This document shows, piece by piece, positions 1,447 to 35,427 of a DNA stretch of 35,427 nucleotides; within the stretch, counting starts at the first letter, position 1, and every line of letters begins with the position of its first letter. This DNA is from a virus. The notes beneath the pieces were generated by a model. That model was not told where the DNA came from. It saw only the letters and a program-made list of their open reading frames with translations, and did no database searches. The DNA is taken from the IMG/VR virus record IMGVR_UViG_3300030110_004040, positions 1 to 35,427 of that record, one strand, 5' to 3'. Made by a program: the position numbers and the translations under genes.

Positions 1447-1720
1447 CAGTCCCCCATGTGTCGATTGTTAGGTGTCGGCGCACTGCTTCAATCTCAGAGC
1501 GTTGTGGTACCCAGCTGTCCCGGTCTGGCTTGGGACCAAAGAAGGGGCCCACGTGTTCTCTGTTTCTTGGGTCGTTGTCCCAGTCCCCGAACTCTTCATC
1601 GAAGTAGTTAGCCATCAAGGCCGCGAGATCCTCGTTCGTCATGCTTGCCGCGTCATCTGCGGAAAACCTTTGGGCGATAAGCCCCGCAAGCTTTCTTGTG
1701 ATTATGGCGTATATGCTCAT
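1427..1720 (-). CDS. Hypothetical early protein
   Basis: This encodes 97 residues from ATG 1720, preceded by GCGGGGACGCA; a longer start at 1780 has no comparable ribosome binding site and would overlap the upstream gene. The N-terminal part (MSIYAIITRKLAGLIAQRFS) is helical and mildly hydrophobic. The middle is acidic (NEDLAALMANYFDEEFGDWDND) and the end is charged. It is the first gene upstream of the polymorphic segment and is present only once. The function is unknown. Its position in a run of overlapping genes indicates co-transcription with the recombination genes downstream. Confidence 0.65.
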   Translation of the reverse strand: MSIYAIITRKLAGLIAQRFSADDAASMTNEDLAALMANYFDEEFGDWDNDPRNREHVGPFFGPKPDRDSWVPQRSEIEAVRRHLTIDTWGTDDVCTN

Positions 1721-1760
1721 TGCGTCCCCGCTTGTGTTGTGTTGTAAGGTTTTACCATCT

Positions 1761-2093
1761 TTACGTTGTGCCGTCAACACCTGTTAGCACTCGCACTGCA
1801 CGCCGCAGCTTTTTGACGGCTTCGTCTCGCTCCCTTCGGACTTCATCCAGATGGTTAAGCCACCACTCATTGATTCTTCTGTGGTCTTCGCTGGTTGTCT
1901 GCTCTTCCGCTTCGGCCAATCTCAAGTCCCGACTGTCGAACCACGCTTCAGAGTCTGGCCCTGGTCCGCACGGCCTATCGAACTGGACAAAGCACACAGG
2001 CTTTCCAGTTTCCGACAGTTTGATGGTTTTCACTGTGCCCACGGTTTTGTCACTGTATGGGGTTTTTACTCTGTCTTTTAAGTAGGGCTTCAT
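1761..2093 (-). CDS. Hypothetical early protein with SH3-like N-terminus and coiled-coil tail
   Basis: The product has 110 residues. The first about 55 (VGTVKTIKLSETGKPVCFVQFD, then AWFDSRDLRLAE) have the pattern of a small SH3/KOW-like beta barrel: a VGTV strand, a value strand and a closing acidic dLrlae turn. This layout is common among uncharacterised phage early proteins. The remaining residues form a charged amphipathic helix (INEWWLNHLDEVRRERDEAV), probably a coiled coil. It starts with ATGA overlap against the upstream gene. The fold is inferred from pattern only, and no biochemical role can be stated. Confidence 0.65.
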   Translation of the reverse strand: MKPYLKDRVKTPYSDKTVGTVKTIKLSETGKPVCFVQFDRPCGPGPDSEAWFDSRDLRLAEAEEQTTSEDHRRINEWWLNHLDEVRRERDEAVKKLRRAVRVLTGVDGTT

Positions 2094-3689: not shown

Positions 3690-4055
3690 TCATTGTCCAC
3701 CTTCCTCTCGTCTTTTGCGCCTTACCTCTCGTAAGGCTTGTCTGGTTTCTGCATACATGTCTGCGGCACAGTCGAGGCCGGTCAAGCTTGGCTCATGCTC
3801 TGATAAAAGCTTAGTCGCCAAGATCATTTCTTTGTGTTCGGGGGTCCAGCCCCGAGGGTTGACCGGAAGCGCCGCTTGGATGTCGTCAAGTGCATCCCGC
3901 AGGTGCTTTGGCATCCTTGCGAGTCCAGTGCTACGCAGCTTAGCGAGCCTAAGTGCAAAATTAGCGACGCTGGCGCGATGCTTGTCCCAGTCGTCCCGAT
4001 ACCAGTTAAGGCGGCGAAGTAGTTCGTCTGTAGCCATATCTTTACCCGCTGTCAT
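3690..4055 (-). CDS. Helical hypothetical early protein
   Basis: The 121-residue product is charged and helical throughout (TDELLRRLNWYRDDWDKHRASVANFALRL, later YAETRQALREVRRKRREE), with a basic tail. The ATG at 4055 has GGAG upstream; MATDELL at 4037 is an alternative start. It is the first gene downstream of the first of three double-hairpin elements and the last of the early genes to have one. No family is recognised. Confidence 0.65.
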   Translation of the reverse strand: MTAGKDMATDELLRRLNWYRDDWDKHRASVANFALRLAKLRSTGLARMPKHLRDALDDIQAALPVNPRGWTPEHKEMILATKLLSEHEPSLTGLDCAADMYAETRQALREVRRKRREEGGQ

Positions 4056-4081
4056 CGCCCGCGCTCCTCTCGTTTGTTGTC

Positions 4082-4138
4082 CGCTCCATCAAGGGCACCA
4101 GCTGTGATGCACTTGAGGCAGCGCCCCCCGTAGGGGGC
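4082..4138 (-). ncRNA. Double-hairpin intergenic RNA element, copy 1
   Basis: It begins five bases after the stop of the upstream gene (4144-4578). Hairpin A is GCCCCC-TACG-GGGGGC, a six-base-pair stem closed by C-G around a UACG (UNCG-type) tetraloop. Hairpin B has an outer CGCT/AGCG pairing, then TCAAG/CTTGA, then GCATCA/TGGTGC with a CAGC loop. In copies 2 and 3 the middle pairing is TTAAG/CTTAA, so both sides changed together. The spacer GGACAACAA and a GAGAGGAG ribosome binding site for 3690-4055 follow. There is no U-tract after hairpin A, so a simple intrinsic terminator is unlikely. Confidence 0.7.
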
Positions 4139-4143
4139 TCGGT

Positions 4144-4578
4144 TCACCTGTTCGGTTGTTGTCCGCTCCATTCGAAAGTTGTTCCTGCTTTTTCCCTTGC
4201 TTCGTAACGCTTAACCGCGTCGACGGCCTCCTCTAAGGTGTAAAACCTCTCGTATGGCCTCGGGTAATTGTGACGCCGTTCTGACCATTCCGCGACATCT
4301 ACCGCCTTACCATTTCGGTATGCTGTAACGTCGAAACCATAGAGATCGAAGTCGGTCTCTTCGTCTGGGTTTAGGACCTCGTTTTCCCAATTAATCGTAA
4401 TCCAGAAGTCGAACCCTCTGGTGACGATAGGCGGCACGGCGAACGGGAACCCTCGGTCTCCGTCGGTCCTTCCATACCTCACGCGTGTGTCGCAAGTTTT
4501 GCCCCCGTCGAGCCGAAGCTTGTTATAAAACTTTTTCGATGCCACGCCTTGCCCGTCTTGAAGTTCTGCTTTGGTCAT
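4144..4578 (-). CDS. Hypothetical early protein
   Basis: The product has 144 residues from ATG 4578, preceded by GAGAGGAG; the longer frame to 4614 would start inside the upstream RNA element. The protein is mixed alpha/beta with beta-prone central strands (FDFWITINWENEVLNPDEETDFDLYGFDV) and a C-terminal helix (YTLEEAVDAVKRYEAREKAG). The last codons (WSGQQ) contain a 14-base exact copy of the leader sequence seen in the adjacent intergenic element (4156-4169 and 4074-4087), so its 3' end may have been extended by duplication of a leader. The function is unknown. Confidence 0.65.
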   Translation of the reverse strand: MTKAELQDGQGVASKKFYNKLRLDGGKTCDTRVRYGRTDGDRGFPFAVPPIVTRGFDFWITINWENEVLNPDEETDFDLYGFDVTAYRNGKAVDVAEWSERRHNYPRPYERFYTLEEAVDAVKRYEAREKAGTTFEWSGQQPNR

Positions 4579-4606
4579 TGTCCGCACTCCTCTCTGTTGT
4601 TGTTTC

Positions 4607-4662
4607 CGCTCCATTAAGCCCCTGAGATTCAGAGACTTAAGGGAGCGCCCCCCGTAGGGGGC
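4607..4662 (-). ncRNA. Double-hairpin intergenic RNA element, copy 2
   Basis: It starts eight bases after the stop of 4671-5009. Hairpin A is identical to copy 1 (six pairs, UACG loop). Hairpin B pairs CGCTCC with GGAGCG, then after one mismatch continues as an unbroken 12-pair stem: TTAAGTCTCTGA with TCAGGGGCTTAA (including T-G wobbles) around a three-base loop. The leader GGAAACAACAA and the ribosome binding site of 4144-4578 follow. The inner stem shares little sequence with copies 1 and 3 but keeps the pairing. Confidence 0.7.
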
Positions 4663-4670
4663 TGGACCAG

Positions 4671-5009
4671 CTACAGTCTGGCAATGGTTCGACCTGATTC
4701 GTCTTTCACGTAGAAGTGGCCAAGCCCGCGTCGTGTCATTGCGCCGATTTTGAGAAGGCCATCAGCAGCCCACACCTCAAAAACCACGCGCTTGTAATCG
4801 TCTACAAGAATCTGAAAAATCGGCGCGCGCTGGTCTACTCCATCATGCTTGAATTCGACCATGTCGCCGCTGGTGAACTCTTCGCCTTTTACAATCACAA
4901 CTGTCCCGCTTGGGATCATCTCAAAATGCTCATCTCCGCCCACCTCTATGTGTGGGTATGAAAATGGGTGTGCGTATGCTTTGCCGTCTACGTATGCGAT
5001 TCTTCTCAT
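4671..5009 (-). CDS. Hypothetical beta-rich early protein
   Basis: The product has 112 residues from ATG 5009, with GGAG five bases before it; a longer frame would run into the RNA element. It is predicted mostly as beta strands (GTVVIVKGEEFTSGDMVEFK, FQILVDDYKRVVFEVWAADG), typical of a small barrel or sandwich. It sits between copies 2 and 3 of the double-hairpin element. I do not recognise the family. Confidence 0.65.
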   Translation of the reverse strand: MRRIAYVDGKAYAHPFSYPHIEVGGDEHFEMIPSGTVVIVKGEEFTSGDMVEFKHDGVDQRAPIFQILVDDYKRVVFEVWAADGLLKIGAMTRRGLGHFYVKDESGRTIARL

Positions 5010-5034
5010 GCTGTCTCCGTTCGTTTTCGTTGTC

Positions 5035-5086
5035 CGCTCCATTAAGCCCCCCATAGAGGCTTAAGGCAGCGCCCCCCGTAGGGGGC
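5035..5086 (-). ncRNA. Double-hairpin intergenic RNA element, copy 3
   Basis: It starts six bases after the stop of 5093-5338. Hairpin A is identical to the other copies. Hairpin B pairs the outer CGCT with AGCG, then TTAAGCCTC with GGGGCTTAA around a short TATGG loop. The sequence GGACAACG and the GGAG ribosome binding site of 4671-5009 follow. The loop and inner stem differ from copies 1 and 2. Confidence 0.7.
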
Positions 5087-5092
5087 TGGGGT

Positions 5093-5338
5093 TCAGTCCT
5101 CGAATGCTGGTCGCGTCTCGCCCATCGTGCCAATGAAGTGATTGCCCGCCTTGATCTTAGCGACAGCCTCCTCCATAACCTCAATCTGAGCCTTGATGAT
5201 GCACACGTACATATCACCAGCGGATCCGCCGATGGCGAAACCTGCGGGGCAAGTGTTGGCGGCAAGCCTCGCCTTGAGGCTTGCCAGCATCCCATCAAGG
5301 ACTAGCGTCGGTGCGTTAATGCTGACTGTGAATTCCAT
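5093..5338 (-). CDS. Small hypothetical early protein
   Basis: The product has 81 residues. A beta-strand start (MEFTVSINAPTLVLDG) is followed by a long helix (MLASLKARLAA), an Ala/Gly-rich middle and another helix (AQIEVMEEAVAKIKAG). The GGAGGGG ribosome binding site lies inside the last codons of the preceding gene, two bases apart, so the pair is coupled. It is the last gene before the first double-hairpin element met by transcription. The function is unknown. Confidence 0.65.
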   Translation of the reverse strand: MEFTVSINAPTLVLDGMLASLKARLAANTCPAGFAIGGSAGDMYVCIIKAQIEVMEEAVAKIKAGNHFIGTMGETRPAFED

Positions 5339-5340
5339 GA

Positions 5341-5526
5341 TTACCCCTCCACCTTTACGGTGACTTCCATGACGTTGTTTGCGTTTTCCATGAGCTTGGC
5401 CAAGGTGGCTGGCTCAAAATAAACATCGACCGGCTTTCCGTCTGAGTCCATATTCTGTAGTCGAAGCCTAATGTCTCCGTTCAATGTCATTCGCTGTACT
5501 GCTACGTAAATGTTGATGGTCTCCAT
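5341..5526 (-). CDS. First gene of the leftward early operon, hypothetical
   Basis: The product has 61 residues from ATG 5526, preceded by GGAGGCAGT. It is mixed beta/alpha (MTLNGDIRLRLQ, then VDVYFEPATLAKLMENAN). The preceding leader has GGAGCAAACGAAACGAAC, similar to the spacer that follows each double hairpin (GGAGCGGACAACAA), but no hairpins are present here. It is the promoter-proximal gene of the whole leftward unit. No family is recognised. Confidence 0.6.
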   Translation of the reverse strand: METINIYVAVQRMTLNGDIRLRLQNMDSDGKPVDVYFEPATLAKLMENANNVMEVTVKVEG

Positions 5527-5723
5527 ACTGCCTCCGTTCGTTTCGTTTGCTCCATCTGTAAACAAGGTAGCAGTGTGACGGGATAACTGCAAAAGGTTTT
5601 TGTGAGGTAGGGAAGCAACACAGGGAAAGCGCAATGATTCAGCAAGGTTAGACGTACAAGTTTTTTACGCTGTGACCTTTCTTAGTCTATTAAGGGTGCA
5701 TTGCTGTAGTCTACTTATATACA
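5527..5723. promoter_or_regulatory. Divergent control region between the early and late units
   Basis: No gene is visible here. The near-palindromic heptamer TAGTCTA occurs at 5683-5689 and 5707-5713 as a 24-base-spaced direct repeat, and a related TTAGAC half lies at 5648-5653. A TTATATA stretch at 5715-5721 sits just before the structured leader and could be a minus-10 box for rightward transcription. I could not match a convincing minus-35 hexamer at normal spacing on either strand. It must hold promoters for both units because all genes point away from it. Confidence 0.5.
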
Positions 5724-5934
5724 GAAACCCCAGTGATTCAGGGCAGCCGAGCCCCAAGGCAGAGGCTGGCCCCGATGGAGCCGGAGAGGGCGGGTTGAAA
5801 ACCCCAGCCCACGGATAAGGTAGGGTGGCTGGAAAGGTTACTAGAAAACAAGTTCCTAGGGAAACGAGTTGAGGGGCCGGTTTCGGGGGAGGCGGGTCCC
5901 CAGGTGTTCAAAACTCGCACGAAAGGCTACCCCT
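5724..5934 (+). ncRNA. Structured leader of the late operon, candidate regulatory RNA
   Basis: This 211-base gene-free stretch is dense in complementary segments. Stem a: GGGC 5741-5744 with GCCC 5751-5754, or alternatively CAGCC 5744-5748 with GGCTG 5764-5768. Stem b: GGGC plus GGGTT 5788-5796 with AACCC plus GCCC 5800-5810. Stem c: CTAG 5841-5844 with CTAG 5856-5859. Stem d: CGAGTT 5865-5870 with AACTCG 5912-5917, enclosing GGGG/CCCC and CCG/CGG. GGTAG 5819-5823 can pair with CTACC 5927-5931, just before the ATG of the next gene, and GAAACC 5724-5729 with GGTTTC 5879-5884. It could be a translational switch or an antitermination leader (as lambda 6S or put RNAs). No known class was matched. 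Confidence 0.5.
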
Positions 5935-17338: not shown

Positions 17339-19945
17339 GTGGCGACATCTAAGCAGCAACTGGACATCCTTAGCCCTACGATGTCGCTTGACCCGGCAAA
17401 TGACGGCAGCTTTGTCCGCAATATGGAGAACAGGCAGGGCTCCTGGGCTGTAAGGCCGGGGTTTGGTCTTCTCTATCGTGGCGATACAACCATGTCGCTC
17501 ACCTCGACAAGTCAGGGATACAAGAAACACCTCGGTAGTCGCATCATTAAGACAGCCTTTGGCCACACTCAGATAGTTACAGTGCTATCTGCTGACGTGT
17601 TTACTGGTGAGAGCCGAGAGGTTGGCACCTATAGCTCTGTTTACTCTGTTTCTATCTTTGATATTGAGGACAACACGAGGGTTGAGCACATCCTGCACTC
17701 TGTGACAGGTGATGGTGGCCGCAGTTTCCATGAAGCCAGGGTCTTAAAGGCGTGTTACGAGGAAGCATCAGACCGCACAGCCGCTAAATGGCGTCTCTCT
17801 GACGCCAAAACGGTGGCATTCCAAGAGCTGGCTGGCAATCTCTACTTCTCAAACGATGATATCGGCGTTTATGTCTATCGCCCAGCCCTGGTGGTGGAGC
17901 GTTCAGCGCAAATTCAGGGTGCAGACGAGTATGACTGGTCTCCAGCGCGGGGTGAGTCTAGCTCTGTGACCCCAGTGGTGTTCTCTGATGGGTTGAACAC
18001 TGAAGCCTTCAACTATATCAGCAATAATGACCTGTCTGGCGTGTCTGCTATGTGCGAGCACCAGGGTTCGTTGGTATATGCTTCAGGCAACACTATCTTC
18101 TACTCTGATGCCTACCTGCCTAACAACATCAAGGCAGCAAATTCAGACATAATCCCGGTTTTGTCTAACATTACTGCAATGGCGTCTAACGGCGAGTTGA
18201 TTTACGTCTACTCTCGTGACGAAACCTGGGTCATCCAGCCTGCATTGTCGCAGACCGGCCTGCTTGCTGGTGGTGTGTTGACCCGTGTCTCTGCCGAGGT
18301 TGGGTGTGTAGCCCCATCTGCCATCATGTCCATACGCAACGTGCCTATGTGGATCTCAGAGCAGGGTGTTCACGCAATTAACTCCAACTTTGGCTATCAG
18401 ACAATCTCTGAGCCCATTCAAGAGTACTGGAGAGGGGGGGTCTCAGACCCATTCTCTCATTATGCGACACAGGCGAATGTGGTTGGTAGTGGTCCTGGTG
18501 CAACAAACCTTGGAAACCAGCAGCCAGAGACGTTTAGCGCACCGCCCATTGACCCAATGATTGGGTATAATGAGCGATTCGATGAAATCTACTGCTCATT
18601 CGATGACAAGGTTTGGGTTTTCTCTAAGGGTACATGGCTGGTTTGGGACTTTGAGACGTATTACTCAGCCCTAATTAACCCAAAGGTGTCTGCGCTTGAC
18701 CTTGTTAATGGTTGCCAAGTCCTCTCCATGCTTGGCCAGACGTACATGGTTGCCGTAGATAACCCGCTCACTGAGGCTGGGCTTGTTGCTGGCCAGTCGC
18801 GCACAATCTTCCCGTACAGCATTTACGAGCTTGGCCGGGGTGGCGGGACGGATAACAGCTATGCCAACGAGCAAGACCTGATTGTCAGCAATGATATGGA
18901 AAAGATTGCCACCGGGCCTGCCATTGGTTCTGGCGGTGGTGGTGCCGCGTTTTACCTTGAGCTTACAGAGATAAATGCGGCTGGTGAGTATGTGTTTCTC
19001 CTGTCTGGCGTCCCGCCGTCTGGGGCTGGGGTATCAATCCCAGACGGTTGGACGTTCAGGATTAGCTTTAACTCAACATACTGGGAGCCGGTTGATAACG
19101 TTGCCAACCTTGACTACCAACTACCCAATGAGCGAATTGGCAGCTTGAGTGCGATAACCAAGGCAGATAGGAGCGATGTGGCAGGTGCGGCAAGCATTAA
19201 CGGCGACTGCATAAACATCGAAGTTGTCGGCGTTCAGTATCTTAACGAGCGGTACAAAAACCCGCTCATGTACGTCCGATTTAAGCCAACGGCGGCAAAC
19301 TCGGGAACTAACACCTTCGGCTGGTCGTTCCCTGCTGGCTGTGTGGCTACGATCAACATTGGCGGGGGTGGCAATGTCAACGCCAGCGTGTTTGTGAACG
19401 ACCTAAGTTATGTACCGCAAGGAATATCGGAGGGGTTTGGGCAGTCTGTGGCCTATCTATACAAGGCTCCAACTGCAAGGCCCGGTGAGAACCAGCAGAT
19501 AAGGACTCGTGGGCTTTACACCAGGGTGACCTCTCATGGTGAGGGCGCAACACTTACGCAGCAGAACTACCCCTACCGGCTATACAATGCAGCCTTTGGT
19601 TCAGACAAGAAGCTGTACAACGACCAAGTTATCTACAGCGCAAGCGAAGTTGTAACTCTGCCAAAAGAGACATCGATCAGAACCAGGATCCAAAGGGCTG
19701 GCGTGATGGTCGATAAGACCTTTAATGGTAAAGCCTACTATGCAGCCCCCGCGAATGCGGCTACAGGCAACCTGCTCATCGACAACCAACAGGTTGACGA
19801 GATTGCTATGAGCACCAGTGCAAGGGGTGGCAGCATCGGGGTTATGCTTTTCGGGTTTATCCTAAACAAGGCGGAAGCCATTAGGCTGTACGCCGCGAAG
19901 ATGACCTATAAGGTTGTCGGTGGCGCAAGAAGGCGGGGCCGTTAA
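17339..19945 (+). CDS. Large tail nozzle-like protein
   Basis: The 868-residue product is beta-rich with aromatic/Gly repeats consistent with a propeller-like body, for example FDEIYCSFDDKVWVFSKGTW and SKGTWLVWDFETY. T7 gp12 (794 residues) and P22 gp10 occupy the same place and role (tail nozzle/DNA plug) and are also beta-propeller proteins. The N-terminus carries a DPANDGSFVRNMENRQGSWAVRPGF segment typical of tail proteins that bind the adaptor. GTG start behind AGGAG. The function is inferred mainly from position and size. Confidence 0.6.
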   Translation: MATSKQQLDILSPTMSLDPANDGSFVRNMENRQGSWAVRPGFGLLYRGDTTMSLTSTSQGYKKHLGSRIIKTAFGHTQIVTVLSADVFTGESREVGTYSSVYSVSIFDIEDNTRVEHILHSVTGDGGRSFHEARVLKACYEEASDRTAAKWRLSDAKTVAFQELAGNLYFSNDDIGVYVYRPALVVERSAQIQGADEYDWSPARGESSSVTPVVFSDGLNTEAFNYISNNDLSGVSAMCEHQGSLVYASGNTIFYSDAYLPNNIKAANSDIIPVLSNITAMASNGELIYVYSRDETWVIQPALSQTGLLAGGVLTRVSAEVGCVAPSAIMSIRNVPMWISEQGVHAINSNFGYQTISEPIQEYWRGGVSDPFSHYATQANVVGSGPGATNLGNQQPETFSAPPIDPMIGYNERFDEIYCSFDDKVWVFSKGTWLVWDFETYYSALINPKVSALDLVNGCQVLSMLGQTYMVAVDNPLTEAGLVAGQSRTIFPYSIYELGRGGGTDNSYANEQDLIVSNDMEKIATGPAIGSGGGGAAFYLELTEINAAGEYVFLLSGVPPSGAGVSIPDGWTFRISFNSTYWEPVDNVANLDYQLPNERIGSLSAITKADRSDVAGAASINGDCINIEVVGVQYLNERYKNPLMYVRFKPTAANSGTNTFGWSFPAGCVATINIGGGGNVNASVFVNDLSYVPQGISEGFGQSVAYLYKAPTARPGENQQIRTRGLYTRVTSHGEGATLTQQNYPYRLYNAAFGSDKKLYNDQVIYSASEVVTLPKETSIRTRIQRAGVMVDKTFNGKAYYAAPANAATGNLLIDNQQVDEIAMSTSARGGSIGVMLFGFILNKAEAIRLYAAKMTYKVVGGARRRGR

Positions 19946-33629: not shown

Positions 33630-34648
33630 TCCCGCACCTCTTTCCTTTTTACGTAAATACGATTCTTCTTTCCAATGGTCACCGACACACCTTCACCAAA
33701 GGCCCTCTCATGCGGTCCCAAGGCACGTATCAGGTGGTTGCTGACGTTCGCATCCTCCTCCTTGAGCTTTTTGATTACCTCTCTAATCTCAAGCTTACGC
33801 TCTGCCAGTGACACGATGGTATCACTGACCTCCATTACTCCATGCCTCTCATCAAAGGACAGCATCAAAGCATCACGACACTCGCTCGACCCATCGATAG
33901 GTGGCATCTGGTCCAGCACAATGTGCTTCTTGTACCAGTCCGAAAGCTTTGGAACGATCTCACGCTCAAAGCCATCGATGTCGGGGTCGATTGTCGCGAC
34001 ATGGAGCCTCGCCATATCGATATCAATCATCTCCCTGGCAAGGCTGACCGCAGCCTGTAGACCATCCTTCTTGATAGCGTTACGCAACAACGTAAAGCTA
34101 TCCTCGCTGGCAGCTAGGCACACAAGCATGCTTTCACGCATATGCTTGTCTGCGTTTGGCCATGTCTTGGAAACACCCCATGCACACTGCCTCACCTGGA
34201 GATTGTGGTCTGGTCTTTCGTCGGATACGTAGGGCTTAAATGTGTCCATGTTGCTTTTGATTTCCATTGTGCCCACGGCCTGACCGCTGCTCTTATCAAC
34301 GATAATCCTGTCAGGTGTGCAGTGAATCCACGGCTCAACCTGGATAGACCCGTCACCAAAACTGGCCACCGCTGTTAAGCCTTGAAGACTCAGCACCGGT
34401 AGCGCCAATTCTGCCACCAGTGGTTCGAGTTCGTGGCCACGGACGAGATGGTCACCCTCCCTTGGCTCACTGATTCCCAACAGGTCAGCCTTGACTGAGT
34501 GCTGGTTTCCATAAGGATTCAGACCGAGGACCATAGAGCTATTCGACGCACCCAGGCTACGCATAACATCAACCGTGGGCGCAATCTTGACACCGAAGTG
34601 TTCCTCGATGGCGTCACGGTCAACCGTTGGGTAGACGTAGGCACTCAC
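33626..34648 (-). CDS. YqaJ-type recombination exonuclease
   Basis: The product has 340 residues, GTG start. The nuclease core includes RGHELEPLVAE (Glu73/75), HCTPDRIIVDK (Asp113), VGTMEIKSN (Glu129, Lys131) and NLQVRQCAW (Gln151). This is the lambda-exonuclease/YqaJ viral recombinase fold. The C-terminal part is helical with a basic end (IGKKNRIYVKRKE). With ERF it forms a two-component recombination system. The N-terminal region also occurs as a diverged copy at 1-414. The GTG overlaps the preceding stop by one base. Confidence 0.88.
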   Translation of the reverse strand: MSAYVYPTVDRDAIEEHFGVKIAPTVDVMRSLGASNSSMVLGLNPYGNQHSVKADLLGISEPREGDHLVRGHELEPLVAELALPVLSLQGLTAVASFGDGSIQVEPWIHCTPDRIIVDKSSGQAVGTMEIKSNMDTFKPYVSDERPDHNLQVRQCAWGVSKTWPNADKHMRESMLVCLAASEDSFTLLRNAIKKDGLQAAVSLAREMIDIDMARLHVATIDPDIDGFEREIVPKLSDWYKKHIVLDQMPPIDGSSECRDALMLSFDERHGVMEVSDTIVSLAERKLEIREVIKKLKEEDANVSNHLIRALGPHERAFGEGVSVTIGKKNRIYVKRKEVRE

Positions 34649-34986
34649 TACTTAGGCTCATAGTCGAGTAGCTCACCGTCAAGCACACACAATGCGCCGA
34701 CGCTGAACAGCGGGTCATTGGGGTCGTTGCCTTCGTAGTTGTACAGGTCCATGTACTGTGCAACTACGCGCACGGTATGCACGCTGCTCTTCATTGATAC
34801 GTCTCGAATCTGTCGAGCGATTGCCAACGCTTTGTCTTTGTCACCCTTGGCAAGATACCTGCCAAGCTCCGCCGCTGTCATGCCCATGGCCTTCAAGCGA
34901 ACCTTAACCCGGTAGGCAAGCGGGTCTTCGTAGGTCTTTGTCTTGAGCATCTGCTCCGCTGCTTTTCTGTTTGGATGTACCATCAT
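34648..34986 (-). CDS. Small hypothetical early protein (right variant)
   Basis: The product has 112 residues, or 111 from the second of two adjacent ATGs, with GAGAGG upstream. The core YRVKVRLKAMGMTAAELGRY...DKALAIARQIRDVS matches the product of 411-770; the N-terminus (MMVHPNRKAAEQMLKTKTYE) and C-terminus are different. The core may be a helix-turn-helix-like unit, but this is not demonstrated. It is directly upstream of the exonuclease with a one-base overlap. Confidence 0.7.
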   Translation of the reverse strand: MMVHPNRKAAEQMLKTKTYEDPLAYRVKVRLKAMGMTAAELGRYLAKGDKDKALAIARQIRDVSMKSSVHTVRVVAQYMDLYNYEGNDPNDPLFSVGALCVLDGELLDYEPK

Positions 34987-34988
34987 TG

Positions 34989-35228
34989 TCAGTTCCTCTC
35001 TGGTGTTGTCATGCTCATTCTGAATTCGTAACCGGCACGTATGCCGCGCATATAATTTTCGTTACCTCGGTACCAGGGCGCGCCCTCATTGAACCCGTAC
35101 ACCCCGTGGTTGAAACCCTCGTTAAACTCATGTGTCGAAAAGACAAGCCCGTCACCCTTAAGGTGTCGGCGTAAATGCCTGACAAGCGCCCTGGCAATCT
35201 CTCCAACTCTGTCAATATGCACAGGCAT
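34989..35228 (-). CDS. Small hypothetical early protein with HG/GF motif (right variant)
   Basis: The product has 79 residues from ATG 35228 (GGGGGG upstream), corresponding to the left gene 992-1234. It shares MPVHIDRVGEIAR, THEFNEGFNHGVYGFNEG and YMRGIRAGYEFRMSM. In this haplotype it is followed directly by 34648-34986, without the paralogue seen at 767-988. The function is unknown. Confidence 0.7.
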   Translation of the reverse strand: MPVHIDRVGEIARALVRHLRRHLKGDGLVFSTHEFNEGFNHGVYGFNEGAPWYRGNENYMRGIRAGYEFRMSMTTPERN

Positions 35229-35230
35229 CT

Positions 35231-35427
35231 TCATCCCCCCAGTTTGACGACGTTGATAATTTCCCCGCAAGGCTCAATGTGTGTAACCTTGCGGTGCTTG
35301 AATGCTTCAATGTGCTTCTCAAAGGCCTCAAGGGTGTTGTGATAGTCCCCGGTGTCATCGGAAAGCCAGACACCGACAGAAAACCATACACAGCTTCGCT
35401 CCACACCATCCCCCGCACTGTTAGTTT
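35231..35427 (-). CDS. Small hypothetical early protein, start cut off by the right edge
   Basis: This is the right version of 1237-1446. It encodes the last 65 residues (from TNSAGDGVERSCVWF to VVKLGG); the first four residues lie beyond the window. The frame and end match the left copy with a few substitutions (for example TGDYHNTLEAFEKHIEAF). Confidence 0.65.
   Translation of the reverse strand, partial: TNSAGDGVERSCVWFSVGVWLSDDTGDYHNTLEAFEKHIEAFKHRKVTHIEPCGEIINVVKLGG

Follow-up and report, generated by a model that had tools for sequence, protein, structure and literature searches.

RNase III processes the early mRNA of T7-group phages, as textbooks describe. Among the sites involved, T7 R1.1 has been described (PMC6121014, PMC8708148), and RNase III cuts it at nt 5887 (PMC8708148). 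For the E. coli enzyme, a 12-bp stem with a tetraloop suffices for one cut, and an R1.1 variant with full pairing receives cuts in both strands (PMC8708148). Preferences vary among bacteria, the alphaproteobacterial enzyme of S. meliloti cutting R1.1 at an atypical site (PMC6121014).

Other described systems resemble the locus presented here in part. Some intrinsic terminators are UNCG-capped, with a GC stem and a cUNCGg loop behind the stop codon, as in our elements. The T4 promoter early stem-loops (PeSLs), as cited in PMC4503421, share with our elements a stem-loop behind an early gene, a common leader that follows it, and a location where genes are gained and lost. The start-associated sequences of mycobacteriophages (SAS/ESAS; PMC3203893) likewise combine a repeated sequence near the start, a Shine-Dalgarno, an upstream inverted repeat and wide junctions between non-structural genes; for the ESAS repeats, mRNA hairpin formation is unsupported according to the authors (PMC3203893).

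Three elements in a leftward early operon

The window, i.e., the whole 35.4-kb stretch of viral DNA that was analysed, carries helicase, terminase and structural genes in a rightward block, and small early genes and recombination genes in leftward blocks (functions partly assigned by eye). Starting near 5555, the leftward early operon reads Z, A, element 1, B, element 2, C, element 3, D, followed by small, mostly overlapping genes (Table 1). An earlier note on this DNA had described three copies of a double hairpin at early-gene junctions, each opening with an identical UACG-capped hairpin; all three were recovered at these junctions, and all are read on the minus strand, i.e., in the direction of the operon.

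Table 1. Positions in the window of the elements, the neighbouring genes, their leaders and a putative promoter.
Feature	Positions	Strand	Remarks
Element 1, hairpin 1	5071..5086	-	GCCCCC UACG GGGGGC, 6 nt past gene A stop
Element 1, stem 2 (RNase III-type)	5036..5070	-	predicted cut between 5041 and 5040, by analogy with T7 R1.1
Element 2, hairpin 1	4647..4662	-	8 nt past gene B stop
Element 2, stem 2	4608..4646	-	12 uninterrupted pairs above U bulge; predicted cut between 4613 and 4612
Element 3, hairpin 1	4123..4138	-	5 nt past gene C stop
Element 3, stem 2	4083..4122	-	window's best match to the T7 RNase III site model; predicted cut between 4088 and 4087
Gene Z (61 aa)	5341..5526	-	first early-operon gene
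Gene A (81 aa)	5093..5338	-	upstream of element 1; relative in phage G007, 39% identical
Gene B (112 aa), orphan	4671..5009	-	between elements 1 and 2
Gene C (144 aa), orphan	4144..4578	-	between elements 2 and 3
Gene D (121 aa), orphan	3690..4055	-	downstream of element 3
Gene Z leader	5527..5555	-	ATGGAGCAAACGAAACGAACGGAGGCAGT; operon's own 5' leader, like those of B, C and D, without hairpins
Gene B leader	5010..5040	-	Shine-Dalgarno GGAG; aligned to gene Z leader, p about 0.001
Gene C leader	4579..4612	-	leader alignment
Gene D leader	4056..4087	-	leader alignment
Putative early promoter	5564..5592	-	TTGCAG-17-TACCTT; aligns with its counterpart in phage G007; weak

Hairpin 1 is identical in all three elements, and the 19-mer GCCCCCTACGGGGGGCGCT occurs three times against 0.01 expected. 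Stem 2 adjoins it with zero unpaired bases between the two (3/3 elements) and follows the consensus GCU.CC.UYAAG-inner-CUURA.U.GG.AGC, in which TCAAG/CTTGA or TTAAG/CTTAA pairs are extended downward through CC/GG and GCU/AGC. In every element, a common leader and then a Shine-Dalgarno come after stem 2. The element junctions are ~80-90 nt wide, and the other junctions checked either overlap or measure at most about 40 nt.

The leaders of genes B, C and D take the form ATGGAGCGGA..., are A-rich and carry a GGAG Shine-Dalgarno and an ATG start. Since the hairpin-free leader of gene Z is of the same kind (ATGGAGCAAACGAAACGAACGGAGGCAGTATG), the sequence past each element looks like the 5' leader of the operon itself. 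The putative promoter ahead of gene Z was missed by our sigma-70 scan, and the promoter-leader region of the first early gene of phage G007 (see below) can be aligned with that of the window. Another ACAACA-rich leader (AAGATGGTAAAACCTTACAACACAACACAAGCGGGG) was seen at the K-L junction (1715-1775, minus strand), with no double hairpin. When the leaders of the window were compared with PMC3203893, the 13-nt GGGATAGGAGCCC was missing beside the start codons, so that SAS/ESAS elements were rejected; our elements also show support for mRNA hairpins, the opposite of what is stated for ESAS.

This layout could be taken to mean that the elements are never cut, and instead form an insulator in which the double hairpin blocks ribosomes that have completed the upstream gene from drifting into the next one and keeps the A-rich downstream leader and Shine-Dalgarno independent, perhaps with passive stabilisation of the mRNA. 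The position of hairpin 1 just 5-8 nt behind the stop codon would suit such a role, as would the fact that the element genes lack the overlapping and coupled type of junction frequent in the rest of the operon and that each has a leader and Shine-Dalgarno of its own. However, predicted leader accessibility, in which the element genes could not be separated from other genes of the operon, exceeded the average of the operon in the case of B and C, though not of D, and an insulator leaves unexplained why the elements and the T7/T3 RNase III sites match each other reciprocally (see below). We thus regard an uncut insulator as unlikely.

A GC-rich UNCG hairpin directly behind stop codons is also what one would expect of a partial terminator or pause site grading expression along the operon, and the best matches in phage lambda to a model built from the elements are terminator-like hairpins. 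Yet no U-tract follows either hairpin on either strand, a terminator scan finds nothing at the elements, and hairpin 1 is followed immediately by a second conserved and structured stem with no promoter detected downstream. Intrinsic termination was rejected on the missing U-tract, already raised in the earlier note, and the negative scan, and partial termination or pausing appears very improbable. Two further candidates were discarded: integron attC sites, as the elements have no RYYYAAC or GTTRRRY boxes and no integron integrase was seen among the open reading frames (by eye), and translational bypassing, as a take-off/landing repeat is present at element 3 only.

RNA folding and compensatory change

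On the minus strand, the minimum free energies of the three copies are -34.4, -41.1 and -34.1 kcal/mol (z -3.4, -6.1 and -3.2), and none of 200 shuffles per copy reaches the native energy. Plus-strand z-scores are weaker (-1.6, -2.3 and -1.8), a bias due to several pairs being G.U in the mRNA, and the structure was therefore assigned to the mRNA. In a genome-wide fold scan element 2 ranked third, and elements 1 and 3 were absent from the 25 sites listed. After correction for GC content, the window's strongest hairpin is that at 18996-19065 on the plus strand (-40.8 kcal/mol), within the coding gene 17339-19945. GC-rich sequence with several possible hairpins and no recognised gene was also noted at 5738-5930 (plus strand), where the early and rightward promoter regions diverge.

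The inner loops of stem 2 pair better than versions whose letters were shuffled within the fixed outer stem (p 0.008, 0.002 and 0.044 for the three copies). The earlier note had seen in these loops a changing sequence with preserved pairing, and arm swaps narrow this claim: the arms of copies 1 and 2 are interchangeable, and copy 3 pairs with itself only, so that the true compensatory rewrite is that of copy 3 versus the other two. Across the alignment, four pairs are altered on both sides and 97% of cells are paired, against 32-57% in slid controls, figures that come from a small sample of three paralogous copies in one phage.

The absolute conservation of hairpin 1 and its GCGCU flank might alternatively point to a binding site for a phage or host regulator, acting either as an RNA operator or as a DNA site. 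No candidate regulator could be linked to the element, however, and a DNA site would fit poorly with a stem 2 that is conserved as structure and biased toward the mRNA strand; we judge a regulator site extremely improbable.

Comparison with T7 and T3 RNase III sites

To relate the elements to known processing sites, covariance models were run in both directions. The T7-site model was built from eight T7 RNase III sites only, at coordinates located in the T7 record, and was run unfiltered on both strands of all 35 kb. Its top match in the window was element 3 (16.6 bits, E 0.027), the next reaching 10.2 bits (E 2.1). Elements 1 and 2 scored weakly (4.4 and 4.1 bits), and were the best two matches in a 506-nt stretch, in the same register. 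In the related phages G007 and G008 this model found nothing better than E 0.85.

The element model, built from the three window elements only and likewise run unfiltered, gave 17 matches in T7 at E up to 10, six of which were RNase III sites in the stem-2 register: R18.5 ranked first and R4.7 third, with R0.5, R1.1, R0.3 and R1.3 after them. In T3, where the sites are annotated in the record, four of 12 matches were RNase III sites, again through stem 2 (R1 at the top, then R0.5, R1.3 and R4.7). By a simple binomial tail the enrichment is about 3e-9 for T7 and 6e-6 for T3. As single matches in T7 and T3 are weak (best E 0.059, all E-values being rough owing to a short calibration), it is this enrichment that carries the reverse test. 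Lambda gave a better score (E 0.006), located on terminator-like hairpins that resemble hairpin 1 of the model.

The two sets of sites also share a short motif. CTYAAG-N9-35-CTTNATG, a pattern chosen post hoc, occurs three times in the window, each time in an element, and all of its occurrences in T7 (5/5) and T3 (4/4) are RNase III sites, against a background of zero in lambda, three in 163 kb of other sequence and 0.2-0.3 per shuffled genome. When T7 early junctions were folded for comparison, the same stem faces were seen (CUCAAGG...GGCCUUUAUGA). Like the T7/T3 sites (R0.3, R0.5, R1, R1.1, R1.3, R4.7 and R18.5), our elements thus lie at gene junctions of an early transcript in several copies per operon, are about 60 nt in size with a 10-12 bp hairpin, and present a CUYAAG 5' face and a CUUNAUG 3' face in the same register. 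The earlier note knew of no named RNA class that would fit, a statement that the reciprocal match of stem 2 does not support; its broader idea of a modular leader that processes or insulates the early mRNA survives in part, with processing now favoured by the evidence.

Several differences set the elements apart. They carry an extra UNCG hairpin fused upstream, and the terminase of their phage has no more than distant kinship with those of named phages. At its cut site, T7 R1.1 has an asymmetric 4/5 internal loop where the elements have a single bulged U, although T7 R1.3 and R3.8 also fold without such a loop. Set against the 12 bp that suffice for the E. coli enzyme, the stems above the U bulge are 10, 12 and 11 bp in elements 1, 2 and 3, which places element 1 at the short end. 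In T3, the loop of R18.5 (L047:35038-35088) is CUACGG, the same UACG tetraloop as in hairpin 1.

Probable gene gain and proposed processing of the early transcript

The closest relatives of this phage are other IMG/VR contigs, with terminase identity up to 99-100%, and the named phages among the matches listed stay below 30%. Searches for the element itself by DNA pattern found no homologue in viral contigs (one chance match within a coding gene and six unrelated) or in genome contigs (three unrelated matches), and nothing relevant in annotated phages; no Rfam family exceeded its gathering score, permissive E-values giving chance matches only. Nor did a search through a conserved neighbour gene recover anything beyond G007. 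The earlier note had counted a lack of homologues with conserved pairing against its proposal, and the collections searched indeed yielded none. With no orthologous element, the case for conservation is that of three paralogues together with the T7/T3 cross-match.

G007, the largest relative, is about 93-94% identical over the helicase-to-capsid segment and has an ortholog of gene A, but its genes overlap tightly where the window reads A-element-B-element-C-element-D, with no B, C, D or element. Proteins B, C and D are mutually dissimilar, and have no relatives in annotated phages and none above chance in Pfam or PHROGs; for protein C, viral contigs yielded none either. Because G007 lacks these genes and elements and B, C and D have no detected relatives, the elements probably arrived with, or multiplied with, recently gained genes. 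At the scale of the whole window, the two ends (1-1430 and 34235-35427) form a repeat, about 88-90% identical and differing in length by about 240 nt, and the repeat includes a partial second copy of a YqaJ-like exonuclease gene; the window is probably a circularly permuted ~34.2 kb genome assembled across two strain variants.

It would be possible to see in this pattern a modular boundary cassette akin to the T4 PeSLs, in which the repeats are kept mainly as recombination promoters for the swapping of early genes. The elements flank three orphan genes missing from G007, genes B, C, D and Z have common leaders, and the 15-mer TGGAGCGGACAACAA of the leader recurs as an exact copy at 4156-4170, inside the end of gene C (EWSGQQPNR) and 82 nt upstream of the gene D leader, where it is probably a recombination scar. 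On the other hand, selection for DNA identity would not be expected to yield a copy 3 that is rewritten and still paired, and gene swapping may well be a by-product and not what the elements are for. PeSLs themselves were rejected as a scan limited to the sigma-70 consensus found no promoter in the elements or between stem-loop and next gene; unlike PeSLs, our elements also have two stems and an RNA structure conserved beyond sequence. A boundary cassette thus seems quite improbable.

We consider it fairly likely, on comparative sequence grounds, that the elements are instead mRNA processing signals of the T7 early-operon kind, with stem 2 cut by the host RNase III; the comparison is with the E. 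coli enzyme, and that of the host may differ. Because E-values are rough, single cross-matches weak, the three copies paralogous and RNase III preferences variable among hosts, we describe them as working like a T7-type signal, i.e., as probably a variant with two hairpins of the RNase III processing signals known from T7, and claim no descent from T7. The nt 5887 cut of T7 R1.1 falls within UUUAU↓GAUUG (arrow, cut), which maps onto the elements as CUURAU↓GGAGC, the very point where the leaders of B, C and D begin to resemble the first leader of the operon (Table 1). RNase III would thus recognise stem 2 and likely cut on its 3' side at this point, and a second cut on the 5' strand may be possible as the base of stem 2 is almost fully paired.

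Such cuts would split the early transcript into separate mRNAs, one for Z-A, one for B, one for C and one from D onward. Those downstream of a cut would begin with a leader resembling that of the uncut transcript. Those upstream would have hairpin 1 at the 3' end, whose very stable UNCG-capped stem behind the stop codon would shield them from 3' exonucleases. As hairpin 1 adjoins stem 2 without an unpaired base, the two may also stack, with hairpin 1 taking the place of the lower helix found in T7 sites. It is tempting to go further and speculate on a distinct two-part module, in which a double cut excises stem 2, the stacked UNCG hairpin becomes a 3' cap, and new early genes bring the module with them and become independent mRNAs at once, an extension that we find conceivable but less likely than not.

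If the elements do work like T7-type signals, uncultured phages of another lineage would also use such a signal, either by convergence on the preferences of the enzyme or by transfer. The element would then represent a compact natural cut-and-protect part for operon splitting, and CTYAAG-N-CTTNATG in a stem at gene junctions may serve as a short motif for finding such sites in phage genomes.
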